Of a stretch of DNA of 64,000 nt, positions 37,533 through 59,270 are shown one piece after another; positions within the stretch are counted from its first letter, which is position 1; each line of letters opens with the position of its first letter. Location: contig NZ_CP010868.1 of assembly GCF_000875775.1 (NCBI RefSeq), forward strand, positions 868,001 to 932,000, read 5' to 3'. The position numbers and the translations under genes are program-made. Below the pieces are notes generated by a model. It did no database searches, was not told the DNA's origin, and saw only the letters and a program-made list of their open reading frames with translations. The DNA comes from Nitrosopumilus piranensis. Its GTDB lineage: Archaea > Thermoproteota > Nitrososphaeria > Nitrososphaerales > Nitrosopumilaceae.

Positions 37533-38753
37533 ATGTCTGAGGAATTTGTATTTAATATTCTTGTGTTGTTAGTGTCTGCAATTATTCTTGGAGAAGTTTT
37601 TAAACGAATTAAATTACCTGCAATGGTTGGCCATCTTTTAGCGGGAGTTATAATTGGACCGACATTGCTTGGAATTGTTCATATCGATGACTCTTTTCTA
37701 GTGTTCATTGATCTTGCAGTATTTTTCTTGATGTTTTTAGCTGGTTTGGAATTGCATCCAGAAGAAATCAAAAAGGCAGGAAAACGTGGTATTGTTTTAT
37801 CTCTACTTGCTTTTAGCATTCCATTTTTGGCAACATATGGTTTGATGGATGCATTAGGACAACCAATGATTACATCAATGTTTGTTTCGCTGACTCTGGC
37901 AATTACTGCAGTACCCGTAAGTGCAGTAGTATTGATGGAATTTAAGCTATTGAAAAGTAAACTTGGTACCACTGTGATGACTGCAGGCATCATCAATGAT
38001 ATTTTATCCCTAGTTATCTTGGCAATAATTCTACAAATGGCAGTTAATGGAACTGACAGTGCTAGTCCTGAAGAATCTTTGGATATGATGAAAGTTGCAC
38101 TATCTACTGCAAAAATAGCTGCATTTGTAGGTGGCATATTTTTGGTTGATTATTTGCTAAATAGATTTAGCCGCCAGGTTCCTAGAAAACTGATTCCTAT
38201 TTTCTCAAAATTAAAGACAAGAGAATCTGGCTTTGCAATATTGCTGATTGTGACATTTGGTATTTCCCTTTTAGCTGAAATGGCAGGACTTCATTTTATT
38301 ATTGGAACATTTTTTGCAGGTTTGATAATATATAGAAAAATCATTGGCAAAGAACATTTTGAAACCATTAATGATGTATATAGTAAAATTACATTTGGAT
38401 TTTTCTCGCCAATATTTTTTGCATTCATAGGAACAGAATTACATGCTCAGTCTTTGTCCGGCTCAATTCCATTATTTTTGATGCTGTTGGCAGTAGCTAT
38501 TGCTGGAAAGGTAGGCGGAGGATTTCTTGGAGCAAAAATTGTTGGCTTTTCAACACAAAAAAGCAAAGTCATTGGTTATCTTATGAATAGTAGAGGAATG
38601 GTTGAACTTGTTATCGCAGTTATTGGGTTAGAGGCAGGCATTATCGATGAGACAATGTTTTCAATAATAGTTGCTGTTGGATTTATTACTACAATTCTTG
38701 CACCCATAATGTCTAGAGTTTCTATAAAACACTCAAAGGAAAGTTTTTCATAG
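37533..38753 (+). CDS. CPA2-family cation/proton antiporter
   Basis: 406 aa, about 12 membrane helices. Typical Kef/NapA-like start (LVSAIILGEVFKRIKLPAMVGHLLAGVIIGPTLLG), GLELHPEEIKK, the ion-binding region around GIINDILSLVIL (N-D pair), and ending GMVELVIAVIGLEAG. No TrkA-N domain, so it is a bare transporter for Na+ or K+ against H+. Stands alone, convergent with the SNF gene. Confidence 0.9.
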   Translation: MSEEFVFNILVLLVSAIILGEVFKRIKLPAMVGHLLAGVIIGPTLLGIVHIDDSFLVFIDLAVFFLMFLAGLELHPEEIKKAGKRGIVLSLLAFSIPFLATYGLMDALGQPMITSMFVSLTLAITAVPVSAVVLMEFKLLKSKLGTTVMTAGIINDILSLVILAIILQMAVNGTDSASPEESLDMMKVALSTAKIAAFVGGIFLVDYLLNRFSRQVPRKLIPIFSKLKTRESGFAILLIVTFGISLLAEMAGLHFIIGTFFAGLIIYRKIIGKEHFETINDVYSKITFGFFSPIFFAFIGTELHAQSLSGSIPLFLMLLAVAIAGKVGGGFLGAKIVGFSTQKSKVIGYLMNSRGMVELVIAVIGLEAGIIDETMFSIIVAVGFITTILAPIMSRVSIKHSKESFS

Positions 38754-38779
38754 AAATTAAAATTTAATGATTAGAAACC

Positions 38780-40096
38780 TTAAAAATTTTCAGATAAAAT
38801 TGATGATACAACTGTAAGTATTATTAACATTGGTGCAACAAATTTTAACACATGAATAGTCCAATCTGGAAAATTATATCTTGAATTTTTGTTTAAATTT
38901 TCTAAAATTCTTTTCTTTTTCATAAACCACGCTACTGAAATTACAAACACCAATTCTGCAATTGTAATGCCATATGTTCCAAAGATCTTATCTAAAAGAT
39001 CTAGAAATTTTTCTTCTTGAAATTCAAGTGATATTGGTGAATAACTCAAGGCAGATGGAATTCCAAACATCAGTACCAATACCAACACAAAAAATGCAGC
39101 TTTTCTCCTTGATGTTCTAAATGATTCTTGAACTGATGCCATTGGAACTTGGAACAAACCTATTGCTGATGTAATTCCTGCAACAAACAGTAGTGAAAAA
39201 AATATTGCGCCAATTTGCATTCCGTAATCAATATTTGAAAAAATTTCTGGTAGAATATTAAATACTAATGGTAATCCTTGTGAAGGACTTTGGGCGTTTG
39301 AAAATACTAGAGAAAATATTATAATTCCTGCCAAAATGGACACTCCTGTATTTGTTACAATTATGGTTGATGTGGGTTTAAGTAAGAACTGCCTTTTGCC
39401 CAAATAGCTGCCATATGTCAGCATTGCTCCTGAACCTAATGACAGTGAAAAGAAAGCCTGCCCTAAGGCTGTAGTCCAGATCTCAGGATTGACCAAAGAT
39501 GAAAAATCTGGCCTCAAAAAATACGTAATGCCTTCCATTGCATTTGGAAGTGTTATTGCATAAATTGTAAAAGGAATTAGTATGGCAATCAAAAAAACTA
39601 CTGCAATTTTATTAAATTTCTCGATTCCGTGAATTACACCTTTATTGACAATGGACACTACGATTAATGTCACTACTACAAAAGAGATTAATGAAAAATA
39701 TGTCTGGGCTAAATCTTCAAAACCAAGTACGTTTGAAACCAAAAAACTTGATAGATAAAATCCAATCCAACCAATGATTACCAAATAATAGCTTAGTATT
39801 ACAAGCGAAACTGAAGCAATTAGAACACCAAACCACTTTAACTTTGTTCTAATTCTTTTAAGACTATTAACAATTGATGATTGAAAATATTTTCCAACTG
39901 AAAATTCCAACATCATGAGAATTACACCTAGCCCTACAACTACTATCAAAAAAGGAACAAGAAATGCTCCTCCCCCATTTTCTCCCACGATGTAAGGAAA
40001 TCTCCATATGTTTGCCACTCCTACTGCTGATCCAATACATGCTAAAATGAAACCACTAGTTGATTTCCATTCTTCTCGTTTTACTTCTGATTCCAA
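38780..40096 (-). CDS. SNF-family Na+-dependent symporter
   Basis: 438 aa from TTG 40096, 11-12 membrane helices. Hallmark TM1 motif GFILACIGSAVGVANIWRFPYIVGENGGGAFLVPF (Na+ and substrate site), TM6 FFSLSLGSGAMLTYGSYL and TM8 GITSAIGLFQVPMAS. LeuT-fold transporters move amino acids or similar compounds with Na+; the substrate cannot be told. Two AGCTTAA sites lie 42 and 61 nt upstream. Confidence 0.9.
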   Translation of the reverse strand: MESEVKREEWKSTSGFILACIGSAVGVANIWRFPYIVGENGGGAFLVPFLIVVVGLGVILMMLEFSVGKYFQSSIVNSLKRIRTKLKWFGVLIASVSLVILSYYLVIIGWIGFYLSSFLVSNVLGFEDLAQTYFSLISFVVVTLIVVSIVNKGVIHGIEKFNKIAVVFLIAILIPFTIYAITLPNAMEGITYFLRPDFSSLVNPEIWTTALGQAFFSLSLGSGAMLTYGSYLGKRQFLLKPTSTIIVTNTGVSILAGIIIFSLVFSNAQSPSQGLPLVFNILPEIFSNIDYGMQIGAIFFSLLFVAGITSAIGLFQVPMASVQESFRTSRRKAAFFVLVLVLMFGIPSALSYSPISLEFQEEKFLDLLDKIFGTYGITIAELVFVISVAWFMKKKRILENLNKNSRYNFPDWTIHVLKFVAPMLIILTVVSSILSENF

Positions 40097-52155: not shown

Positions 52156-54318
52156 ATGAAAGTATCACTAATTTACAATCAATCAAAAATTGATCCACAA
52201 GATGTTATCAACGTCTTTGGAATGACTACAAAAGAGCACTATAGTCAAAAAGCAGTTGAAAGAGTTGCACGGGCTTTAGAAAAAGGCGGTCATACAGTTA
52301 AGGTCATTGAAGGAGATATTCACTTGGCAGATGAGCTTCGTGAATTTATGCCAAAAGTAGTTGCAGGGGACACTCCTGGTATGGTGTTTAACATGGCATA
52401 TGGAATTCAAGGTCAGAACAGGTACACACATGTTCCTGCGATGATGGAAATGCTTGGAATTCCATACATTGGATCTGGTCCTGCAGGTCATGCAATTGTT
52501 CAAGACAAAGTCATGACAAAAATTGTTCTGCAAAAAAATAATATCCCTACCCCGGGATTTTGGGTATTCAAAACACCTGAAGATACATTTGATGATTTAG
52601 TTTTTCCTGTAATTGTAAAACCAAAATTGGAATCAACTTCGATGGGTATGGAAGTTGTTGATAATTGGGATGATCTTCGGGCTGCAGTTAAAGTACAAAT
52701 TGAAAAATTTCAACAAGACATTTTGGTTGAACAATTTATTTCTGGACGAGAGTTTGCCGTTGGGTTAATTGGTAATAATCCAAACATTGAGGTTTTACCC
52801 ATAGTTGAAATTAATCTAGACAACCCTGATCAAATCCAAACCATAACTGACAAAAAGAAAAAGGGAGGTGTTGATAAAACGTGCCCTGCAAATCTCTCAA
52901 AAGAAAAAACAGAAGAGATGAAACAGATGTGTATCAACGCATTCACTTCTTTGGGACTAAATGATTACAGCAGAGTTGATTTTAGAATGGATAAAGATGA
53001 GAATCTCTACATTCTAGAGTTAAACTCCATGGCAAGTTTGGGAGTGGGAGGATCTCTGTATTATGCTGCAAAGACTGCTGGATATACTTATGAATCAATG
53101 ATTAACAAAATTCTTGATGTGGCAGTAATGCGATACTTTGGTTCATTGCATCAGGTGCTAGATGATGATCCTGACATGACTCAACCCTTGCGTGTAATAG
53201 CACGTACATATCTTAGAAGTCATTTACACAGTTTTAAGGAGACACTTAGGGATTTTGTCAATCTGAATACTCATGTGTATAATATTGAGCATGTAAATAA
53301 ACTAGGAAGCATACTTTCTAAGCGACTTAAACATTTAGGATTCAGCGAACACATCCATAATCAGACCGACATTGGAGATATTCGTTTTTTTAAGAATCAT
53401 AATGACCAAAAAAGTGACGTCTTGATCATTTCCCATTTAGATACTCATTACGGCCCTAATGACTTGATATCGTACTATGAAGATGGTGATAGAATACATG
53501 GCTCAGGAATTGCTGAAAGCAAGGGCGGCCTAACCGTAATGTTGGGTGCATTACATGCACTACGCTTTGCAAAACGCCTTCGTAAAGTAAAATGTGCTGT
53601 ATTGCTTACAACTGATGACAGTCTTGGTGGTAAATTTAGCAAAAAACTAGTTCAACAATATTCTAAAAAATCAAAGTATATCTTGGGATTAAAATCTGCC
53701 AGCAAAGATGGTGGAATAATTACAACGTGTTATGGGAGAACCGATTACCAAATCCGTTTTACTTCAAATGAAACGGCTGATGATGTGCATGGTATAATCC
53801 CAATGTTAGGCAAAAAAATTTCTGCAATTGAAAAACTATCAAAAGATGAAAAAGATTATCGCATAAGAACCACCTCGGTTGTGGCACAAGGAACGCATGG
53901 TCATACTCCTAACTATGCATCACTTTCATTGATATGCAGCTACAAAACTAGTCAACTAGGAGCTACACTTGATTCAAAAATACGTTCCATTATGAAAAAA
54001 CGTGAAACTGGACAAATAAAACTTGAAGCTGAAATTAACCAAATACAAACTCGACCGCCCGTAATTGAAGAAAAGTCTGACAAAAAATTCTATGAGATGG
54101 TAGAAGATTTAGCTAAAAAGCATGAAATCAAAATAAAGAGACATCAACAAATAATGTCCTCTGATATTAGTAATGTACCTTCCAGACTTCCAGCACTTGA
54201 TGGATTTGGTCCACTTGGGCACAAATACCGCTCTGCCAAAGAATACATAATTCATGATAGCATCGTTGAGCGTTCTGCGTTATTGACCTCAATTCTTTAC
54301 AAATGCAGTGAAAAATGA
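52156..54318 (+). CDS. ATP-grasp ligase fused to M20-like peptidase domain
   Basis: 720 aa. Residues 1-310: D-Ala-D-Ala-ligase-type ATP-grasp (GMVFNMAYGIQGQNRYTHVPAMMEMLGIPYIGSGP; PVIVKPKLESTSMGM; metal-binding DFRMDKDENLYILELNSMASLG). Residues 330-720: M20-type domain with SHLDTHYGP, GSGIAESKGGLTVMLG and TTDDSLGGKFSK. The usual M20 acidic residues are kept as acids but changed (D to E, E-E to D-D). One half would form amide bonds and the other break them or remove an acyl group. This lineage has no peptidoglycan, so the substrate is unknown. First gene of the 52-59 kb cluster. Confidence 0.82.
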   Translation: MKVSLIYNQSKIDPQDVINVFGMTTKEHYSQKAVERVARALEKGGHTVKVIEGDIHLADELREFMPKVVAGDTPGMVFNMAYGIQGQNRYTHVPAMMEMLGIPYIGSGPAGHAIVQDKVMTKIVLQKNNIPTPGFWVFKTPEDTFDDLVFPVIVKPKLESTSMGMEVVDNWDDLRAAVKVQIEKFQQDILVEQFISGREFAVGLIGNNPNIEVLPIVEINLDNPDQIQTITDKKKKGGVDKTCPANLSKEKTEEMKQMCINAFTSLGLNDYSRVDFRMDKDENLYILELNSMASLGVGGSLYYAAKTAGYTYESMINKILDVAVMRYFGSLHQVLDDDPDMTQPLRVIARTYLRSHLHSFKETLRDFVNLNTHVYNIEHVNKLGSILSKRLKHLGFSEHIHNQTDIGDIRFFKNHNDQKSDVLIISHLDTHYGPNDLISYYEDGDRIHGSGIAESKGGLTVMLGALHALRFAKRLRKVKCAVLLTTDDSLGGKFSKKLVQQYSKKSKYILGLKSASKDGGIITTCYGRTDYQIRFTSNETADDVHGIIPMLGKKISAIEKLSKDEKDYRIRTTSVVAQGTHGHTPNYASLSLICSYKTSQLGATLDSKIRSIMKKRETGQIKLEAEINQIQTRPPVIEEKSDKKFYEMVEDLAKKHEIKIKRHQQIMSSDISNVPSRLPALDGFGPLGHKYRSAKEYIIHDSIVERSALLTSILYKCSEK

Positions 54319-54393: not shown

Positions 54394-56040
54394 TTGAAAG
54401 ATAAATTTGGAATAATTGTTAATCGACTCATTTACGGCTTTACTTTTGCATTTTTGTATCAAATTGTAATTGGAATTGCAACATCTCTACTTTCATTGCC
54501 TCTTACCGGCAACGTTCAGGATCTCATATATGGTGTAGAAAAAATAAATTCTCAAGAAGGAGTCTTATTTGTTGCTTGGTGGATAATCTCCACAATCATC
54601 ATTACAGTTATTGCACTAGTAATAATTAGATACAAAAAATATCTCTCGCCATACAAAGATGAAAAAGACATTGAAGTTCCACCAAAAATTACTACAATTA
54701 CTGCAATAATTATTGGCGCTTCTATCTCATTTCTCTTCTTCTTACTTGATGCAATTATTGGTTTAGTGGTAACCCCTGGTTCCCAAACAGATGTCGCAGC
54801 AATCTACGAGTCTGCACTTGTTGGTGATTTCACCCCGCTGTTTGTTAGCATTATTTTTTCAATAATTGCAGGATTCATCATTGTAGGAATTGCAAGTAAG
54901 ACATCAAAAGTAAAAGAACTCACAAAAGACATTGGATTGCAAGACATCACTGGGATTAAACGAATTATGAACATGACTAAAACTCAAAAAACTACCCTAT
55001 CTGATACAATCGGTCAACGCCCTGGAGCCTTAATTCATGTAGGAGAAAAAAAGGTAGATCATGTTACAATCAACCTAATTGAATATGATGCTGAAAACAT
55101 CAATCAAGTACAAAATGCTTCTATTGAGCAATGTTTAGAGTCTAAAAACAAACAAAATGTTTCTTGGATTGATATTATTGGAATTCATGACCCAAAAATC
55201 ATAAAAACATTTGGAGATAGTTTTGATCTTCATCCACTCCACCAATCAAACATAATGAACACTGAATTAAGGCCATCAATTGAAGTATCTGATAATCATA
55301 TTTTGGTGATGCTAAAAATGCCTCATTACAGCAATGAAACTGGAAAGCTAGAATTAGAACAAGTCTCAATCATTATATCTGAAAATCACCTTGTGACATT
55401 TCAAGAAACTCCTGATGATTTCTTTGATCAAATTCGTAAGCGATTGCAAGACAAATCAGGATCTATTAGAAAACTCAAGAGTGATTATCTGGCATATGCG
55501 ATAATTGATGCAATTGTTGACAGCTATTTTTTGGTAATAGAACAAGTCGGTGACATCACTGAAGACATAGAGGAAGAATTAATGAAAAACCCTACTGCTG
55601 AAACTATGCAGACCATTCAAACATTAAAGCGCAGAATGATAGCACTAAGAAAATCAATCTGGCCTGCTAGAGAGATTGTAGATTCTTTAATACGTGAAGA
55701 TACGATTTTCATTTCTGAAAATACTAAAACCTATCTTCGTGATGTTTACAATCATGTGATCCAAGTAACTGATTCTATTGAAGGGTTACGTGATGTGATT
55801 GGGGGTATGCTTGACACATATCTGTCTAGCGTAAGTAATAGAATGAATGAAGTCATGAAGACTCTTACAATTATTGCGTCCATATTCATTCCAATTACAT
55901 TCATAGCTGGAATTTATGGTACTAATTTTTCATATGTACCAGAACTGGCATGGGAAGGAAGTTACTTTGTAATGCTTGGTGCGATGGGAATTATCTCTAT
56001 TACCATGATTGCATATTTCAAAAAGAAACGGTGGATGTAG
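54394..56040 (+). CDS. CorA-type divalent metal channel with N-terminal membrane extension
   Basis: 548 aa from TTG 54394. An added N-terminal module (residues 1-170) with four membrane helices precedes a standard CorA cytoplasmic domain (about 190-480) and two C-terminal helices. The signature loop is YGTNF rather than Y-G-M-N-F (IAGIYGTNFSYVPELAWEGSY). CorA moves Mg2+ or other divalent ions; the altered signature may change selectivity. Ends 9 nt before the K+ channel gene. Confidence 0.87.
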   Translation: MKDKFGIIVNRLIYGFTFAFLYQIVIGIATSLLSLPLTGNVQDLIYGVEKINSQEGVLFVAWWIISTIIITVIALVIIRYKKYLSPYKDEKDIEVPPKITTITAIIIGASISFLFFLLDAIIGLVVTPGSQTDVAAIYESALVGDFTPLFVSIIFSIIAGFIIVGIASKTSKVKELTKDIGLQDITGIKRIMNMTKTQKTTLSDTIGQRPGALIHVGEKKVDHVTINLIEYDAENINQVQNASIEQCLESKNKQNVSWIDIIGIHDPKIIKTFGDSFDLHPLHQSNIMNTELRPSIEVSDNHILVMLKMPHYSNETGKLELEQVSIIISENHLVTFQETPDDFFDQIRKRLQDKSGSIRKLKSDYLAYAIIDAIVDSYFLVIEQVGDITEDIEEELMKNPTAETMQTIQTLKRRMIALRKSIWPAREIVDSLIREDTIFISENTKTYLRDVYNHVIQVTDSIEGLRDVIGGMLDTYLSSVSNRMNEVMKTLTIIASIFIPITFIAGIYGTNFSYVPELAWEGSYFVMLGAMGIISITMIAYFKKKRWM

Positions 56041-56049
56041 TGAAGTATA

Positions 56050-56853
56050 GTGGTTAGCAGTATACTTCAAAGAACTTATGAAATTCTTGAAGGTACTACT
56101 AATGACAAATTAGCCAAGGGGTTTCAGATTTTCATTATATCTTTAATTTCCGTAAATGTACTTGTAGTGATTATTGAAACTGAGGAATCTGTTTTAGATG
56201 AATATGGTTATTTCTTTACCCCCTTTGAAGTCTTTTCTATCATTGTTTTTACAGGAGAATATGCTGGACGACTAATTGTTTGCAAACTCAATCCAAAATA
56301 TCAGAATAAAAAATTTGCATTACTACGATTAGTTTTTTCTCCCATGATGTTAGTTGATTTAGCTGCAATTTTGCCATTCTTCTTGCCATTTATTGTCACA
56401 GATGTAAGATTCATCAGAATCATCAGGTTGTTGAGATTATTCAGATTATTCAAACTTGCAAGATATTCTGAACCAATGCAAACATTGGGCGAAGTATTCA
56501 AGTCAAAAGCAGGTGATTTGGCTGTAGCATTCTTTATCTTGTTCATTGTCTTGATTTTTGCTTCTAGCTTGATGTATCATGCAGAACATCAGGCTCAGCC
56601 TGAAGTATTCTCTAGTATTCCTACTTCTATGTGGTGGGGAGTGATCACCTTGACTACCATTGGCTATGGTGATGTATACCCAATCACTTTGGCTGGAAAA
56701 ATAATTGGTGCAGGTGTTGCAATTCTTGGAATAGCAGTTTATGCAATTCCTACAGGTATCATGGCCTCTGCATTTACAGAGGAATTGAGGAGAAGACGTG
56801 AAACAGAAAACAAGAAATGTCCTCACTGTGGCAAGGACATTACAGGAATATGA
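56050..56853 (+). CDS. voltage-gated-type potassium channel
   Basis: 267 aa from GTG 56050. Six membrane helices; S4-like segment with regularly spaced Arg (VRFIRIIRLLRLFRLFKLARYSE, about residues 118-140); selectivity filter TLTTIGYGDVYP (about 203). Short C-terminal zinc motif CPHCGKDITGI. Passes K+ across the cytoplasmic membrane. Tightly linked between corA and ggt (9 and 15 nt gaps). Confidence 0.92.
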   Translation: MVSSILQRTYEILEGTTNDKLAKGFQIFIISLISVNVLVVIIETEESVLDEYGYFFTPFEVFSIIVFTGEYAGRLIVCKLNPKYQNKKFALLRLVFSPMMLVDLAAILPFFLPFIVTDVRFIRIIRLLRLFRLFKLARYSEPMQTLGEVFKSKAGDLAVAFFILFIVLIFASSLMYHAEHQAQPEVFSSIPTSMWWGVITLTTIGYGDVYPITLAGKIIGAGVAILGIAVYAIPTGIMASAFTEELRRRRETENKKCPHCGKDITGI

Positions 56854-56868
56854 TATGGAGATTAAAAA

Positions 56869-58500
56869 TTGGATATTAGACAAATAGAAAGCTCATTCAA
56901 ACCAACTTCAAACAAAAAATGTGCCGTTGGCAAAAAGGGAATGGTTGCATCAGCATTTCCTGATGCTACAAAGGCTGGAATTGAGATGCTCAAAAAAGGT
57001 GGCAATGCAATTGATGCTGCATGTGCTACTGCACTAGCATTAGGTGTTTGTGAACCTCAAGCATCTGGAATTGGAGGACAATCTATGGCAATTATTCAAT
57101 ATAATGGAAAATCACATGCCATTGATGGTTCTAGCCGTGCTCCATCCCTTGCTCATTCATCTAGATTTAGAAAAAAAAGACATCGACGTTTAGGATACAG
57201 AGCTACTACTATTCCAAGCACTTTAGCTACAATTGGATTTTTGCATGATAGATATGGTAAATTAGAATGGCAAAAGATAGTTGCTCCTTCTATTAGAATT
57301 GCAAAAAAAGGTTACAAAATTACCAAACTACAACATGATTTGCAAGAAAGAGAATTGAAAAACTTTCTTTCAATAAAATCAAAATCTGGGGCAAAATATT
57401 TTCTCAAAGATGGTGTTGTTCCATATGATGTTGGAGATACATTCATTCAACCTGATCTAGCTTATACTCTTGAAGTAATTTCAGAATACGGGTACAGTGT
57501 TTTTTACCATGGCTCAATTGCAAAAGCAATTGCAAAAGACATGGAAGAAAATAGAGGATTGATACGAGAAGAAGATTTGTCCTATATGCCTGAACCAATT
57601 ATACGAAAACCCTTAAGCAGAAAATATCGACATGTTACAGTTTCAACTTTGCCTCCACCTGCAGCTGGAAGAACACTACTGCTTACACTCATGATGCTTA
57701 ATCACTTACCATCAAAATTCTTGCGTAGCTCAAAACCTAGTTCATATCACTTTGTTGCCGAGACATTTAGAAAGGCATTCTTGCATCGATTGCAACGCCC
57801 ATTTAATCGTCATACTTATGACCAAATCACAGACAAGTTCCACCTCCAGCGCTCTTTTGCAAAACAGATGGCAGAGTCAATTCACAACTCTATGGATGCG
57901 ACCCTGCCTATGATTGATCCTGAATTTGGCGGAGAAGATACTACCCACCTATCCACAATGGATGCAGAAGGAAATGCTGTTGGTATTACTCAGTCAGTAG
58001 AGCTTGCATATGGCTCAAAAGCTGCAGCTGACGGTTTAGGATTTTTGTACAATAATTACATGTCTGCATTTGAATTTACAAATCCAAACCATCCTTACTA
58101 TATACGCCCAAACGCAATTCCTTGGACATCTGTTTCTCCGGCATTAATTTTTAATGATTCTAAACTTTGGATGGTAGTTGGAAGTCCTGGTAGCCAGAGA
58201 ATATTTTCTACAGTGACACAATTTCTATCAAGAATTATTGATGGCAATTTGCCAATGAGTGATGCAATTATCAGACCACGCTTTCATTGCTCTATTGGTG
58301 GAACTGTTAGCATTGAGGATGGTGGATTTCGTAAAGAAGTAGTTGATTTTCTCAAAGAAATGGGATATGAAATCTCAGTCAAGGAGAGATACTCATTTTA
58401 CCATGGTGCTATTCATGCAGCCATGAAAATGCAAACTAAAAACGGTTTTCAAGGAGTAGCTGAAGTCAGGCGTGATGGAACAGCAGAAGGATTAGATTGA
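56869..58500 (+). CDS. gamma-glutamyltransferase family protein
   Basis: 543 aa from TTG 56869. N-terminal nucleophile hydrolase: GMVASAFPDATKAGIEMLKKGGNAIDAACATALALGVCEPQASGIGG at the start, autoprocessing/catalytic Thr in EDTTHLSTMDAEGNAVGITQSVE (about residue 360), and GSPGSQRIF near 440. No signal peptide, so it appears cytoplasmic, unlike periplasmic GGT. It splits or transfers gamma-glutamyl groups, e.g. of glutathione-like peptides. The stop overlaps the next start (TTGA). Confidence 0.9.
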   Translation: MDIRQIESSFKPTSNKKCAVGKKGMVASAFPDATKAGIEMLKKGGNAIDAACATALALGVCEPQASGIGGQSMAIIQYNGKSHAIDGSSRAPSLAHSSRFRKKRHRRLGYRATTIPSTLATIGFLHDRYGKLEWQKIVAPSIRIAKKGYKITKLQHDLQERELKNFLSIKSKSGAKYFLKDGVVPYDVGDTFIQPDLAYTLEVISEYGYSVFYHGSIAKAIAKDMEENRGLIREEDLSYMPEPIIRKPLSRKYRHVTVSTLPPPAAGRTLLLTLMMLNHLPSKFLRSSKPSSYHFVAETFRKAFLHRLQRPFNRHTYDQITDKFHLQRSFAKQMAESIHNSMDATLPMIDPEFGGEDTTHLSTMDAEGNAVGITQSVELAYGSKAAADGLGFLYNNYMSAFEFTNPNHPYYIRPNAIPWTSVSPALIFNDSKLWMVVGSPGSQRIFSTVTQFLSRIIDGNLPMSDAIIRPRFHCSIGGTVSIEDGGFRKEVVDFLKEMGYEISVKERYSFYHGAIHAAMKMQTKNGFQGVAEVRRDGTAEGLD

Positions 58501-59270
58501 ATAAACTTCCTGTCTTACTATCAATTCCACATGGGGGATTGAAAAAACCTGCAGAACTTGAGGGACACCTGTCAATTACCAATAAGGACTTGTTTGATGA
58601 TTCTGATCCTTTTGTAATTGAAATGTATGACTTGCAAGATAAAGTTCAGCGTGTAATAAAAACAGACATTGCAAGGACATTTGTTGATCTCAATCGTTCA
58701 CTACAGGACATGCCTCCAAACAACCCTGATGGGTTAATTAAGAGCTCAACGTGTTATGAAAAACCAATCTATATCGTAGGAAAAGAACCTGATGAATCTC
58801 TTAGAACTCTGTTAATTGAATTGTATTACCTACCCTACCATAGGGCAATTCAAAAAAGCTTTACAGAACTTGATTTACAACTATGTCTTGATTGCCATTC
58901 TATGGCATCAACTGCTCCTGGTATTTCTCCTGATGGAAAAGACAAGAAAAGACCATTGTTTTGCCTCTCAAATCAAGATGGCTCTACATCTTCTAACGAG
59001 ATGATTGAATTGCTTGCTGATTGTATCTCTGAATATTACTCTATTGACAGGAAAGATATTTCATTAAATGATCCATTCCATGGAGGACACATCACTAAAA
59101 CATATGGGAACAATCCCATTCCTTGGATTCAAGTTGAGATGAATCGAAGTCTCTACTTGTCTGATCCTTGGTTTGATGAAAACTCTCTATCTGTAGATTT
59201 TACACATCTTCAAAAACTCAACAAACAATTTGAAAATTCTTTGAATGCCTACTTTTCAAAGATTGTGTGA
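58497..59270 (+). CDS. N-formylglutamate amidohydrolase family protein
   Basis: 257 aa from TTG 58497 overlapping the GGT stop. FGase (HutG-type) motifs: LSIPHGGLKKP, DIARTFVDLNRSLQDMPPN, LCLDCHSMASTAPG and QVEMNRSLYL, matching the zinc-binding H, E/D and H pattern. Family members hydrolyse N-acyl amino acids such as N-formylglutamate. Coupling to GGT suggests shared handling of a glutamyl compound (inference). Confidence 0.87.
   Translation: MNKLPVLLSIPHGGLKKPAELEGHLSITNKDLFDDSDPFVIEMYDLQDKVQRVIKTDIARTFVDLNRSLQDMPPNNPDGLIKSSTCYEKPIYIVGKEPDESLRTLLIELYYLPYHRAIQKSFTELDLQLCLDCHSMASTAPGISPDGKDKKRPLFCLSNQDGSTSSNEMIELLADCISEYYSIDRKDISLNDPFHGGHITKTYGNNPIPWIQVEMNRSLYLSDPWFDENSLSVDFTHLQKLNKQFENSLNAYFSKIV

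Follow-up and report, generated by a model that had tools for sequence, protein, structure and literature searches.

Cation-channel genes joined to a Ddl-like ligase and two hydrolases in Nitrosopumilus piranensis: a candidate unit for a beta-glutamate derivative

Introduction

In the genome of Nitrosopumilus piranensis, genes for two cation channels stand between the gene of an amino-acid ligase and those of two hydrolases, and the question raised by this locus is whether the enzymes and channels belong together and, if so, on what compound they could act. The five-gene cluster lies within a 64,000-nucleotide stretch, hereafter the window (G000:C1:868001-932000), of the complete 1,713,078-base genome. 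Comparison with other ammonia-oxidizing archaea indicated that the enzyme set is linked with the channels, co-transcription being inferred from the spacing and recurrence of the genes. We tentatively propose, giving the idea somewhat less than an even chance, that the region may be an accessory osmo-adaptation unit of two modules, in which three enzymes would act on a derivative of beta-glutamate and the channels would carry cations.

Composition of the gene cluster

Family assignments were based on Pfam and NCBIfam profile scores, with the two domains of the ligase assigned to Dala_Dala_lig_C and Peptidase_M20. All five genes are on the plus strand:

52156-54318, plus strand: LIG, a Ddl-type ATP-grasp amino-acid ligase (residues 1 to about 330; PF07478, E 1.1e-32) fused to an M20-like domain (residues about 350-720; PF01546, E 1.6e-11)
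54394-56040, plus strand: accessory (long) CorA-type channel of 548 amino acids with a hydrophobic N-terminal extension, start codon TTG (PF01544 and TIGR00383 above cut-offs)
56050-56853, plus strand: KCH, a voltage-sensor-type K+ channel with a TIGYGD filter and an arginine-rich S4-like helix, start codon GTG (PF00520, E 9.6e-32, above cut-off)
56869-58500, plus strand: GGT-family Ntn hydrolase, predicted to be cytoplasmic (PF01019, E 2.1e-117)
58497-59270, plus strand: FGA, an FGase-family (PF05013) amidohydrolase, predicted to be cytoplasmic (149.4 versus 28.9 bits)

The LIG, GGT and FGA genes are referred to below as the trio. A sequence-only reading of the window had described the last four genes as one packed unit, and its coordinates and spacing proved exact: CorA and KCH are separated by 9 nt, KCH and GGT by 15 nt, and GGT and FGA overlap by 4 nt. 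It had placed this unit just after the ATP-grasp/M20 gene, which is correct as to position (75 nt upstream of CorA), but the unit really includes that gene.

Distribution and gene order

The trio was searched for in samples of 200 genomes of the class and 398 genomes of the phylum and, for bacteria, in plasmids, with presence thresholds of about 40% identity or more for LIG and at least 54% for the GGT subfamily; gene absence in incomplete metagenome-assembled genomes (MAGs) is weak evidence. Among the 200 class genomes, LIG and GGT occupy an identical set of 32, and FGA was found in 31 of these and, as one fragment, in G104 besides. The distribution of the trio is patchy and confined to Nitrosopumilaceae, the family to which all matches also belonged in a scan of genome contigs with one of the cluster proteins; a search for FGase relatives among viral contigs found none. 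In the same 200 genomes, the long CorA is present in 28, including 24 with the trio, and KCH in 22, including 20 with the trio. Within the genus, 18 of the 25 trio genomes carry the long CorA, compared to none of the 20 others (Fisher p 3e-7, phylogeny ignored). Co-occurrence of the cluster genes exceeds chance. Since the trio genes share genomes while many trios are without channels, LIG-GGT-FGA is the core, and CorA-KCH is a second, looser module. Two divergent LIG clades were observed (about 54–58% versus 78–85% identity), and genomes of the genus with the trio tend to be larger, with a median of 1.7 versus 1.45 Mb.

At least nine other genomes or MAGs, from about four genera, have all five genes in this order, some of them with an additional CNNM gene in between. 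Four orders were observed: ligase-CorA-Kch-GGT-FGase, ligase-CNNM-CorA-Kch-GGT-FGase, ligase-GGT-FGase-CNNM-CorA, and ligase-GGT-FGase-CorA-Kch. The channels interrupt the trio in the window, G075, G060, G058, G019, and the Nitrosarchaeum MAG HKST03; they do so together with a CNNM/CorC gene in G044, G050, G056, and G110, and lie downstream of FGA in G007 (CNNM-CorA) and G180 (CorA-KCH). In G044, which we take to be N. maritimus SCM1, the string LIG, CNNM, CorA, KCH, GGT, FGA has successive spacings of -4, -4, 3, 13 and -4 nt, that is, overlaps or gaps of no more than 13 nt. Trio genes also lie with overlaps or tiny gaps where channels are absent, as in the tightly packed trios of G129, G149, G116, G103, G176, G158, G144 and two MAGs (L144 and L150, the latter locus ending at its contig edge). 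The channel pair was found in the trio-less genomes G037 and G132, and at a distance from the trio in G122, G059, G052 and others.

Because contiguity is seen in several genera and in several orders, the juxtaposition of trio and channels probably arose more than once. The occurrence of several orders with constant partners argues that the trio–channel link is selected, with gene exchange in a variable region as a live rival. The enzyme–channel link suggested by the sequence-only reading is therefore upheld as to contiguity and co-occurrence, except that the channels stand outside the core. That reading had also named conservation outside close strains as the check on its claim; the cluster does extend beyond close strains and spans several genera, though all of one family.

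Recurrent neighbours of the cluster genes are two CPA2 exchangers, a Na+:dicarboxylate symporter, Usp and PRC-barrel proteins; just 3' of GGT-FGase, genes for CPA2 cation exchangers, PRC-barrel and AsnC-like proteins recur at loci L096, L097, L101, L102, L107, and L119. The window itself also contains, at 37533-40096, a Na+/H+ exchanger gene convergent with that of an SNF-type Na+ symporter. Extra or broken GGT copies, and LIG clades paired with different GGT clades, were seen at L119, L120 (G059), L098 (G119), L142 (Ww602) and L117 (G178), and point to genes having been exchanged in this region. Some of the extra GGT copies have hexapeptide-repeat genes as neighbours.

Predicted properties of the enzymes and channels

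The ATP-grasp residues R273, D275, E288, and N290 are invariant in all 36 LIG sequences and align with those of solved Ddl structures. At 150.8 bits, LIG falls below the D-alanine–D-alanine ligase cut-off (TIGR01205, 245.65 bits), and a role in peptidoglycan recycling was rejected, as this score is not that of Ddl. Other ATP-grasp matches in ammonia-oxidizing archaea, which adjoin NTPase and GNAT genes or are fused to a methyltransferase, belong to different clades and were set aside. Among solved structures, carboxypeptidase G2 (CPG2) is closest to the M20 half. Of its six dinuclear-zinc-site residues only H112 is retained; the other five are replaced (D141 by E, E175 by D, E176 by S, E200 by K, and H385 by R in CPG2 numbering, the H385 position being aligned by eye). 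These replacements are uniform across the 36 LIG sequences (S in 35), which suggests a conserved new use of the M20 half, not decay, and the site is predicted to be a re-engineered, non-peptidase one. Structure prediction of LIG from a seq­uence alignment of seven members gave a predicted local distance difference test score (pLDDT) of 44.6, too low for use.

The GGT protein clears its family cut-offs (PF01019, 393.5 versus 27 bits; TIGR00066, 373.2 versus 357.85 bits) and retains the catalytic, self-processing threonine (Thr358, 38/38), whose position matches the beginning of the small subunit in solved structures. However, R114 of E. coli GGT, which holds the alpha-carboxylate of the glutamyl group, is aligned with serine in all 38 sequences. 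FGA keeps the family motif residues, invariant in 34 sequences, but misses the cut-off for the N-formylglutamate deformylase HutG by a wide margin (TIGR02017, 97 versus 278.75 bits). No hydrophobic export segment was found in either GGT or FGA. Owing to the Arg-to-Ser change in GGT and the low deformylase score of FGA, a gamma-glutamyl or N-acyl-alpha-glutamate substrate, as supposed by the sequence-only reading, is doubtful.

The long CorA scores 291.7 bits in TIGR00383 (cut-off 200.75). Its signature reads GTN, not GMN (26 of 27 orthologues), whereas GMN is kept in the genome's housekeeping CorA (G000:C1:581508-582467); the selectivity of the GTN-type protein may be for an ion other than Mg2+. 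The KCH selectivity filter TIGYGD, of the TxGYG type, is invariant (22/22).

Relatives of the ligase and the link with KamA

Clues to the substrate come from relatives of the ligase outside the family. The closest bacterial ones found were rhizobial, with 43% identity, and sit on plasmids amid insertion sequences. On a plasmid of Bradyrhizobium barranii 323S2 (L155), genes for KamA, GGT, a seven-transmembrane (7TM) protein, and the ligase follow one another with little or no spacing; in Mesorhizobium, KamA adjoins the ligase. Phylogenetic trees grouped the ligases of ammonia-oxidizing archaea with the rhizobial ligases (support 97/94), and their GGTs with that of Bradyrhizobium against other archaeal and bacterial GGTs (support 100/99). 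The arginine binding the glutamyl carboxylate is missing from the Bradyrhizobium GGT as well. Since both the ligase and the GGT are sisters of proteins from a KamA-containing operon, a beta-amino acid is suggested as the substrate of the ligase.

In other Thermoproteota, the nearest ligases directly adjoin KamA in G191 and in 17 of 18 further loci. Many of these loci (L168, L174-L175, L177-L191) combine KamA and a Ddl-like ligase, to which a convergent ligase gene of the same kind is usually added; L168 also has a GNAT gene. They probably represent a beta-lysine ligase system, of which no description was found. Two aspartates mark lysine 2,3-aminomutase, and an arginine instead would suit an acidic substrate. 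KamA proteins encoded beside the Thermoproteota ligases have the Asp/Asp pair of the lysine type, while those of Bradyrhizobium, Mesorhizobium, and Nitrosopumilus have arginine at the first of the two positions; arginine occupies the position of lysine 2,3-aminomutase Asp293 in six of six KamA proteins compared from ammonia-oxidizing archaea.

In the window's genome (L167:6655-11454, equal to G000:C1 about 211,650-216,450), in SCM1 (L169), and in others, a glutamine synthetase gene comes after KamA, and the pair is divergent from an MscS channel gene; the genome has two GlnA genes, this one included. KamA itself spans G000:C1 about 213,180-214,520, and its SCM1 orthologue C1 about 1,619,400-1,620,740. 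In methanogens, a glutamine synthetase makes beta-glutamine (PMC1224877). The KamA-GlnA-MscS genes are a candidate beta-glutamate/beta-glutamine locus of ammonia-oxidizing archaea.

Proposed function and alternative explanations

N. maritimus SCM1 contains 730 mM beta-glutamate, its most abundant identified metabolite (PMC8269262), and in methanogens the glutamates parallel K+ and give way to zwitterions at high salt (PMC1224877). A K+-balanced anionic store, proposed by the sequence-only reading, is therefore plausible, with the amendment that the ligase suggests a beta-amino acid. One could hypothesise that KamA makes beta-glutamate, and that the trio builds, and later breaks down again, an amide or short peptide containing a beta-amino acid, for which beta-glutamate is the likeliest candidate. 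In this scheme, the ATP-grasp half of LIG would consume ATP in coupling beta-glutamate with another amino acid or an amine. The M20-like half might serve as a binding site for substrate or product, or might have acquired a different activity, and the GGT-like and FGase-like enzymes would hydrolyse the derivative, releasing free anionic beta-glutamate. The second module, comprising the GTN-type CorA, the K+ channel, and in some strains CNNM, would move cations following the charge of the pool. Upon a salt shift, co-transcription would couple cation flux with the conversion of an anionic solute balanced by K+ to a less charged form, or the reverse. This proposal draws on sequence, synteny and literature, with the substrate, product, direction, ion selectivity and co-transcription all inferred. 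In its most specific form, to which we give a lower probability, it would be an undescribed beta-glutamate amide or dipeptide system, expressed together with the K+ channel and the GTN-type CorA for salinity change, whose ligase clade is a branch of a KamA-paired beta-amino-acid ligase family of archaea and rhizobia.

Several observations weigh against these proposals. Rhizobial ligases beyond Bradyrhizobium and Mesorhizobium are without nearby KamA or GGT, and the Bradyrhizobium operon is known from one strain. The Arg/Asp reading of KamA specificity depends in part on background from the aminomutase literature, and the Nitrosopumilus protein scores 84.3 against 650 bits for glutamate 2,3-aminomutase (TIGR04368). 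Almost all Nitrosopumilaceae have KamA, whereas the trio is scattered among them, and KamA and the trio do not adjoin in this family. Channels are missing from 8 of the 32 trio genomes, four genomes have the long CorA without the trio, and the Fisher tests of co-occurrence take no account of phylogeny. The counts of separate trios and channels also favour an explanation to which we give an appreciable but minor probability, namely that two unrelated modules came to share a variable genomic island of large-genome strains through recurrent gene exchange. The mosaic, rearranged neighbourhoods, where GGT copies are duplicated or broken, and the larger genomes of trio carriers agree with this, but the overlap or near-overlap of the six SCM1 genes, similar packing in other genera, the persistence of channels beside trio genes across several orders, and the restriction of the long CorA to trio genomes within the genus do not.

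Alternatively, the trio could make a peptide natural product or metallophore-like compound with a beta-amino acid, having no osmotic role and with the channels as passengers. Its patchy presence, extra copies, and two divergent ligase clades, and the location of the rhizobial relatives on plasmids amid insertion sequences, would fit such a product. This is nevertheless unlikely, considering that the trio is without export, carrier-protein or nonribosomal peptide synthetase genes, that two product-class hydrolases in the operon better suit an internal, recycled solute, and that beta-glutamate is already a bulk solute. Classical gamma-glutamyl turnover, in which GGT and FGase would degrade gamma-glutamyl thiols or peptides, or the tails of F420 or folate, for the ligase to remake, is less probable still. 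The GGT score above the TIGR00066 cut-off (373 versus 358 bits) and the kinship of the M20 half with carboxypeptidase G2 speak for it; against it are the serine in place of the carboxylate-binding arginine, lost in Bradyrhizobium too, the replaced M20 zinc site, the lack of a hydrophobic signal segment in GGT and hence of any sign of extracellular salvage, and the absence of the trio from most relatives in the family, which use such cofactors too.

If the beta-glutamate proposal is true, the operon may tie the organic side of salt balance to the ionic side in marine ammonia-oxidizing archaea, which rank among the sea's most abundant cells. With the KamA-GlnA-MscS locus, it supplies candidate genes for the synthesis, modification and balance of the beta-glutamate pool, and it points to a possible general rule that Ddl-like ligases of this branch take beta-amino acids as substrates.

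Comparison with known systems

Literature searches revealed no paper pairing Nitrosopumilus with GGT, treating FGase, GGT, and ATP-grasp together, or naming genes of beta-glutamate synthesis or turnover in these archaea; metabolome papers on Nitrosopumilus gave no match for glutamyl or dipeptide compounds. The operon of the osmolyte N-acetylglutaminylglutamine amide (NAGGN) encodes an ATP-grasp protein fused to GNAT, an asparagine-synthase-like enzyme, and an M42 hydrolase. It resembles the cluster in combining an ATP-grasp enzyme and a hydrolase in a dipeptide-osmolyte operon, but the cluster encodes none of these three proteins; a domain search of its five products found neither the asparagine-synthase-like enzyme nor the GNAT-fused ATP-grasp. 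The Rlo system of Pseudomonas (7TM, ATP-grasp and retropepsin) was rejected as a model, since it matches the Bradyrhizobium operon in the 7TM part alone.

The ablA-ablB genes of methanogens, for N-epsilon-acetyl-beta-lysine, share with our proposal the KamA-based chemistry of a beta-amino-acid osmolyte, but have an acetyltransferase in place of the ATP-grasp ligase, and no GGT, FGase, or channels. The Thermoproteota loci (L168, L174-L191) encode a Ddl-like ligase about 40% identical to that of the window with KamA adjoining; they differ in the lysine-type KamA, the second convergent ligase found in most of them, and the absence of GGT, FGase, and the M20 half. In the B. barranii operon, unlike the cluster, KamA lies inside, a 7TM_transglut protein replaces FGase, and the M20 half and channels are absent, while its GGT and ligase are sisters of those in the window and its KamA carries the same arginine as in Nitrosopumilus.

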